Both the position numbers and the translations under genes were made by a program. The notes beneath the pieces were generated by a model. That model saw only the letters and a program-made list of their open reading frames with translations. It had not been told where the DNA came from and did no database searches. From Halosimplex litoreum (GTDB lineage Archaea > Halobacteriota > Halobacteria > Halobacteriales > Haloarculaceae), in assembly GCF_016065055.1 (NCBI RefSeq), contig NZ_CP065856.1, forward strand, positions 3,657,836 to 3,721,835: DNA of 64,000 nt, in the 5' to 3' direction. Below are positions 7,175-19,563 of this stretch, in pieces (the stretch's first letter is position 1; every line of letters starts with the position of its first letter).

Positions 7175-7690
7175 CAGGACAGGAACTTAGGGGAGCGGGT
7201 GGCGCGTGCTGTCGAGCGGTGCGAGGTCGACCGCAGGGAGACCTCGATGCGAGCGGGGAACGAAGTGACCCGCGAGCGTGCCCGCCTCGTGGCGGGCCGC
7301 TCGAAACAGTCGCGCGAGGGATGAGCGGAGGAACGGAGTGACGGAGTGAATCGGTTGGGGAGGAGTGTGGCCGCCTGCGATGCTGTGCGGGGCGGTCGCA
7401 GTGCCGTGCGGTCCCTGGTGTCCTGACGAGCGAAGCGAGTCAGGGCCCAGGAGAGCTTGCTCTCCTGGCGGACTGAAAGGGCGAGGCGCGCTCGCGTCGG
7501 GAGTCGCCTGAGCGGGCTCTATCCGCGCGCTGGGAGGCGCGCAGCGCCTCGAAGCGAACGGCTTTGCCGTGAGCAGGCGGTGCCGAGAGCGCGGATATCC
7601 CGGTCAGCGACCGCGAGCGCGGCGAGGGCTTTCGTCGCTTGCCGTCGACTGCGGTTATTTTCTCTCGACTTCGTTCCGCGACTCGTTCAC
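7175..7690 (+). repeat. Modular intergenic repeat, copy B
   Basis: This fills the gene-free stretch between the phosphoesterase gene and the membrane protein gene at 7780. It shares ordered blocks with copies A and C, including 58 identical bases (7585-7642) with 19313-19370. Several hairpins are visible: 7222-7246, 7280-7297 (7-bp stem, TCGT loop), 7423-7443 (5-bp stem around GAGCGAAGCGA) and 7447-7468 (8-bp stem). The conserved tail ends near 7690, about 90 nt before the next start codon. No plausible protein is encoded. The left limit is approximate. Confidence 0.8.
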
Positions 7691-18814: not shown

Positions 18815-18889
18815 GCTCCGTTGGTGTAGTCCGGCCAATCATTTCGGCCTTTCGAGCCGATGACCTGGGTTCAAATCCCAGACGGAGCA
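18815..18889 (+). tRNA. tRNA-Glu (anticodon UUC)
   Basis: A 75-nt cloverleaf with acceptor stem GCTCCGT/ACGGAGC, discriminator A, an anticodon stem TCGGC/GCCGA around CTTTCGA (anticodon TTC) and a T arm CTGGG-TTCAAAT-CCCAG. No intron and no encoded CCA. Confidence 0.95.
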
Positions 18890-19053: not shown

Positions 19054-19472
19054 GTACAGGTGATGGAGTGAGCGGTCGGCGGTTGCGGTGGCGCGTGCTG
19101 TCGGGCGTGTCCGCCTCTTGGCGGACCGCTCGAAACAGCCGCGCGAGGGATGAGCACCGCACGCCGCAGGCGCGCGGAGCGCAATCGGCTGGGGAGGTGT
19201 GTGGCTGTCTACGGTGCTGTGCGGAGCGGTTGGGGCCCCTGGCGGATTGAAAGGGCGAGGCGCGCTCGCGCCCTGAGTCGCCTGAGCGGGCACTATCCGC
19301 GCGGGTGGTGCGGAGAGCGCGGATATCCCGGTCAGCGACCGCGAGCGCGGCGAGGGCTTTCGTCGCTTGCTGTCGCGTGAGGTCGATCCGTTTCAAAGCG
19401 AGCGCGGCGAGGGCTTTCGTCGCTTGCCGTCGAGCGCGGTCGCATCCGATCGACTTCGTTTCACGACTGGTC
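19054..19472 (+). repeat. Modular intergenic repeat, copy C
   Basis: This lies in the 670-nt gene-free stretch between tRNA-Glu and the DUF357 gene. It shares its order of blocks with copies A and B: GTACAGGTGA at the left end, a GGTGGCGCGTGCTGTCG block, a CGCGAGGGATGAGC block, AATCGGCTGGGGAGG, GGCGGATTGAAAGGGCGAGG and the CGACTTCGTTTCACGACTGG tail. A hairpin at 19109-19126 (7-bp stem, TCTT loop) replaces the one at 7280-7297 of copy B. The preceding 19 kb stretch (18890-19053) is inverted-repeat-rich and holds no gene that I can support. Confidence 0.8.
19341..19427 (+). repeat. Internal direct duplication inside repeat copy C
   Basis: A 30-base unit ending CGTCGCTTGC occurs at 19341-19370 and again, identical, at 19398-19427. 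The start-to-start period is 57 bp. Copy B has this unit once (7613-7642), so the second occurrence in copy C looks like a local duplication. Confidence 0.85.
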
Positions 19473-19563
19473 GAACAGAAACAACTGATACACTCGCACG
19501 TTGTACCGAACACCGAGAGTCACGTCCGAACGCTTAGGCCCGCGCCGACACTGGATCCCGAGT

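Follow-up and report, generated by a model that had tools for sequence, protein, structure and literature searches.

Relation to described repeats and structured RNAs

The closest described counterparts of the repeat analysed here are the bacterial REP/BIME/REPIN sequences associated with RAYT (TnpA_REP), which occur as dozens of non-coding, intergenic palindromic copies, form inverted pairs and display one-strand features (PMC3116915, PMC2817692, PMC8266576). Within haloarchaea, the nearest relatives in kind are the PATEs (palindrome-associated transposable elements) of Haloquadratum walsbyi, which lack a transposase, carry palindromes near their ends and are present in many copies per genome (PMC3119063). 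We analysed a 64,000-nt stretch of the Halosimplex litoreum chromosome (hereafter, the window), in which two similar hairpins, at 7280–7297 and 19109–19126, had drawn attention. Each hairpin is a small part of a larger intergenic element, and both lie inside copies of it. As in REP/BIME/REPIN families, copies are numerous and extragenic (68 in the genome; 0 of 166 copies within predicted genes), and inverted pairs occur among the fetched relatives (7 convergent, 3 divergent). However, REP units measure 20–40 nt, whereas the unit of this archaeal family is ~110–700 nt long with two or more hairpins. No GTAG-type tag was recognised by reading, the conserved GCGAGGGATGAG/TGGGGAGG being found instead, and no RAYT was tied to the family: PF01797 was not found in the congeneric genome G001 and no partner gene flanks the copies. 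The family works most like REP/BIME elements, but because it differs from them in unit and in RAYT, we call it REP-like and do not file it as REP. As with PATEs, neither inverted terminal repeats nor target duplications were seen, but PATE palindromes are related to IS605-type ends, whereas this family keeps structure, not stem sequence, across families (PMC3119063). The MITEs and SMRs of Haloquadratum are likewise small non-autonomous haloarchaeal repeats, but the terminal inverted repeats and target duplication that mark them were not recognised here (PMC3119063). On balance, we lean towards a REP/BIME-like or PATE-type non-autonomous structured repeat in which the fold of one strand, as single-stranded DNA or RNA, is constrained. 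In that case, it would represent an archaeal version of REP/BIME whose folds are modular and far larger.

OLE and other large structured RNAs of bacteria resemble the family in their large modular fold and conserved unpaired stretches, but they differ from it in that the family has tens of copies per genome in both orientations, no promoter signal and no fixed partner gene (PMC9723947). Two other classes were considered and rejected. A CRISPR array does not fit the 57-bp units found at the 3' side of the element, which repeat as whole units, ~2–6 in number, and not as identical repeats with unique spacers. A retroelement (retron or group II intron) was rejected, both as the class of the element and as its mobiliser, since the reverse transcriptase domain PF00078 was found in 0 of 8 genomes of the genus, with control genomes positive.

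Architecture of the element

The window contains three copies, delimited by a covariance model of hairpin 1 and the core (R1). Copy B has hairpin 1 and the conserved core at 7201–7372 on the plus strand (E 8.1e-11), copy C has the same parts at 19090–19206, also on the plus strand (E 2.7e-13), and copy A occupies 309–450 on the minus strand (E 2.0e-11), its hairpin 1 and core being near-identical to those of L023 and L026. With these E values and the 68 matches in the genome, the hairpins of the window are not chance occurrences.

The minimal unit of ~110 nt consists of GGCGCRYGC, hairpin 1, YGCGAGGGATGAG, the core hairpin and AATCGGYTGGGGAGG, and sequence similarity between copies begins ~5 nt before GGCGCG. 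In copy B, the core, CGCGAGGGATGAGC–variable hairpin–GTGAATCGGTTGGGGAGG, is found at 7313–7361 on the plus strand (end approximate). The commonest form of the core hairpin is GAT-(GA NN)n-loop-(NN GA)n-ATC, in which the closing GAT/ATC pair was fixed by the search and hence is uninformative. The length distribution of core hairpins has peaks at 32 and 40 nt and includes some of 48 nt, which implies that both arms gain or lose 4-nt (GA+2 bp) units together. Natrinema-type copies end the unit in CCACGATAGCAGRACGC and are sometimes paired tail to tail. Halosimplex copies usually reach ~500–700 bp through the addition of a second structured module and of tandem repeats at the 3' side, the order after the unit being a GYGGT-rich spacer, module 2, 57-bp tandem repeats of its 3' arm and a tail. 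Module 2 is a long-range helix, GAAAG..CGCGCTCGC / GCGAGCGCG..CTTTC, enclosing a second hairpin. It lies, on the plus strand, at 7468–7645 in copy B, with an extra insert, and at 19242–19373 in copy C (L001 1656–1787). Copy C also has two copies of the ~57-bp 3' tandem repeat (plus strand, 19338–19440, ends approximate) and the conserved 3' tail GACTTCGTTTCACGAC..ACTGATACACTCGCAC (plus strand, 19441–19499), about where its likeness to other copies stops. L002, whose element is near-identical to copy C, has 5.9 copies of the 57-bp repeat at 1755–2091; in general, these repeats of the module 2 3' arm look more alike within a locus than between loci.

The 5' arm of hairpin 1 in copy B holds a nested double-hairpin insert, GAGGTC..GACCTC then GCGGG..CCCGC (plus strand, ~7219–7273, ends approximate), which is also present in L016, L033 and L039. 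Small inserts of this kind, a hairpin then GCGAACGG..CCGTGAGC with tandem G.A, recur like modules at several positions of the element, namely at 7219–7273 of the window and in module 2 of L007, L010, L012, L018, L028, L030 and L036. The copy B insert and the minus-strand copy at 309–450 had both been overlooked in the earlier note on this DNA. Just upstream of copy C, at 18815–18889, lies a tRNA-Glu (TTC) gene; the matching stretch fetched from six congeners has a different gene order and yielded no tRNA.

Conservation of helices on one strand

The inner 7-bp stem is GCCCGCC/GGCGGGC with a TCGT loop in copy B (plus strand, 7280–7297) and GTCCGCC/GGCGGAC with a TCTT loop in copy C (plus strand, 19109–19126), both as read from the sequence. 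For these stems, the earlier note had described a pair-2 difference affecting both arms (C-G in one stem, T-A in the other), one differing loop base and 12 shared downstream bases, and on re-reading this description is exact. Beneath the inner hairpin lies an outer 6-bp helix, CGAGCG/CGCTCG, that had escaped the earlier note; in copy C it reads CGGGCG/CGCTCG, with one G.U. The shared 12-mer CGCTCGAAACAG directly follows both stems (7298–7309 and 19127–19138), and these are its two exact matches in the window. By itself it counts for little, because with 2 mismatches allowed the window yields 11 matches against 10 expected.

Among 100 same-type hairpins of the genus, pair 2 is C-G in 91, T-A in 6, T.G in 2 and C.A in 1, a tally in which 58 of the 100 rows were counted and the other 42 read as unchanged; the six T-A copies include three near-identical ones from the H. 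litoreum genome, and the C.A copy is also located there, at 3391218–3391317. The expectation that pairs vary only together thus holds as the rule, but in its strict form it fails, mildly, on these T.G and C.A copies. Other double changes in same-type hairpins are T-A at pair 4 (once) and G-C at pair 7 (twice); pair 6 has G.U intermediates twice, and changes of one arm mostly leave G.U. Pair 2 and whole stems can therefore change provided that pairing is restored. By contrast, the proposal that B and C document a single compensatory pair, that is, point mutations at one site, did not survive: the two copies are paralogues, and copies seem to be swapped as cassettes.

The structural constraint proposed for the hairpin is nevertheless upheld, on grounds that extend far beyond one pair. 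The pattern used to search for relatives constrained the core flanks alone and left hairpin 1 unrestricted; across the relatives, its stems are replaced wholesale with pairing retained. In alignment A1, 94.4% of cells are paired, compared with 21–41% with slid partners, and 58 cells are doubly changed versus 16.8 in shuffles, although the cells are not independent events, because the copies are related and probably undergo gene conversion between them. Module 2 has 8 doubly changed pairs against a comparison value of 2.6. Moreover, under scoring symmetric for both mismatch types, G.T/T.G mismatches outnumber A.C/C.A by 36 to 6 (p 3e-6), and G.A/A.G outnumber T.C/C.T by 127 to 5. Since the complement of G.T is A.C and that of G.A is T.C, the constraint acts on one named strand. 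This argues against palindrome correction and against a cruciform of double-stranded DNA, in which both strands would be read alike, so that the candidates left are RNA and single-stranded DNA. Collectively, these data show that what is conserved is the helical pairing of one particular strand.

The same counts bear on the suggestion that structure is not selected at all and that the arms stay complementary through palindrome correction (intrastrand template switching) or gene conversion between copies. Given that whole stems differ at orthologous sites, copies are probably being replaced or converted, and this leaves fewer independent events underlying the counts. However, correction would erase mismatches, yet tandem G.A is kept in most copies and is nearly always G.A, not T.C; likewise, single-arm changes favour G.U over A.C. 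We consider an origin without selection on structure highly improbable.

Copy number and distribution

A search of the H. litoreum genome with copy C returned dozens of relatives, and R1 gives 68 matches in its 4.16 Mb, 34 on the plus and 34 on the minus strand; these show no replication-strand bias and no domain pattern. Copies are present in 8 of 8 genomes of the genus, at 18–85 per genome. In the class Halobacteria, 65 of 155 sampled genomes have matches, patchily, copy counts per genome being lower bounds in this sample, with at most 24 candidates scored in each. In the phylum sample, 9 of 197 genomes have matches, all listed in the order of the window genome. Among the named hosts are Natrinema, Halosimplex, Halorussus, Haladaptatus, Halococcus, Halogranum and Natronococcus. 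A search of viral contigs and phages for the element gave no match, and plasmid matches are rare and confined to records above 100 kb; in both respects the family is unlike most mobile DNA. Rfam, searched at gathering score and at E<=1, returned tRNAs only, and a literature search for the core sequence or for such a haloarchaeal repeat found no relevant paper. Thus, the repeat family is real, structure-constrained and uncatalogued: a high-copy structured repeat of several families of Halobacteria, missing from Rfam and from searchable papers. As a natural data set, it also offers whole helices that change with pairing kept and length changes that come as paired 4-nt units.

Genomic placement and transcription signals

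Gaps between convergent genes contain 47 copies, compared with 21 in divergent gaps (p 0.002), an enrichment that fits avoidance of promoters, and copies are often found some tens of nt past a stop codon. This placement, together with the covariation, the one-strand G.U excess and invariant unpaired stretches typical of RNA, would suit a cis-acting structured RNA, located in 3' UTRs or between genes, that acts in termination, processing or mRNA stability and has spread by duplication. However, in tandem gene pairs 46 copies are sense and 37 antisense (p 0.38), and the antisense stems are of equal quality (p 0.44) with the same G.U bias. An RNA read from the neighbouring genes would be lost in antisense, so the equally good antisense copies count against this explanation. 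Nor do the tandem pairs display the constant orientation to a controlled gene that characterises a cis-regulatory RNA (riboswitch or leader). Taken together, this makes a cis-acting RNA unlikely.

A multicopy family of non-coding RNA genes, each with its own promoter and acting in trans, would account for the large modular fold (hairpin 1, core, module 2), for a core conserved across several families of Halobacteria and for the one-strand signal. Against it, neither orientation class shows a TATA-like AT peak ahead of the element start, no T-run terminator follows the element, similarity begins ~5 nt before GGCGCG, the copy number is high and the distribution patchy, and Rfam has no match even at E<=1; such genes appear very unlikely. 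Without promoter or terminator signal and with balanced orientation, a transcript is not guaranteed for many copies, and from this we infer that a DNA-level element with a folding single strand is favoured over RNA. A different RNA reading, to which we give a small but real chance, is a large modular structured RNA class of Halobacteria, with tens of dispersed transcribed loci whose tandem-G.A-unit hairpins are swapped as cassettes, serving in trans or as a general inter-gene device.

No gene family recurs in the flanks of the elements. The largest protein cluster (14 loci), a candidate partner gene, turned out to be the 3' repeats read as protein, and what looked like a long array in L065 proved to contain only 2 repeats, its length being an artefact of the gene finder. 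Annotators should be warned that the simple gene finder used here joined 3' repeats of the element to genes.

Turnover and mobility

Near-identical copies of 400–640 bp occur in unrelated flanks. The site of copy B has an element in the H. litoreum genome and in G002, whereas G006 and G001 have a short gap without it. About half of the element sites of two congeners are shared with H. litoreum (11 of 23 and 8 of 19; both sets are partial, and the first counts two sites twice), a turnover that is slow for an active transposon. When 13 orthologous sites were compared across species, most differed in hairpin type or stem sequence, suggesting that whole copies are exchanged or replaced. Thus, judging from these sites, copies appear to be replaced or converted as units, and independent insertion at the same gap may be an alternative.

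No target-site duplication or clean empty-site junction was readable in the intergenic flanks, which are too diverged for base-level reading of the empty site, and by eye no terminal inverted repeats were seen in near-identical copies. Y1 transposase (PF01797) was rejected as mobiliser, as it was not found in G001 despite 46 copies there. Under the favoured interpretation, a REP/BIME-like or PATE-type repeat, the element would be copied within chromosomes by an activity recognising the folded single strand, and copies would be further exchanged among themselves by gene conversion. The fold might be kept since only correctly folded copies propagate, or because the folded strand acts between converging transcription units, or both.

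The close inverted pairs of the fetched relatives have palindromic ends, and none was noticed among the copies of the H. litoreum genome. L189 (1542–1916) resembles L037 of H. litoreum and is a convergent pair, each arm of which carries a shorter relative of module 2 (GATGAAAGGGGC..GGGGGCTTTC). A second family of dispersed structured sequences, CATCTTTTT–(variable stem, often GGGTNTCCTCG..CTGCGGG)–AAAAACATGGGTGAAAAA, has 26 exact pattern matches in the H. litoreum genome (e.g. G000:C1:3170173-3170233) and is also found in L193. Of these 26, about 9 immediately precede the main element on its 5' side, and the others stand alone.
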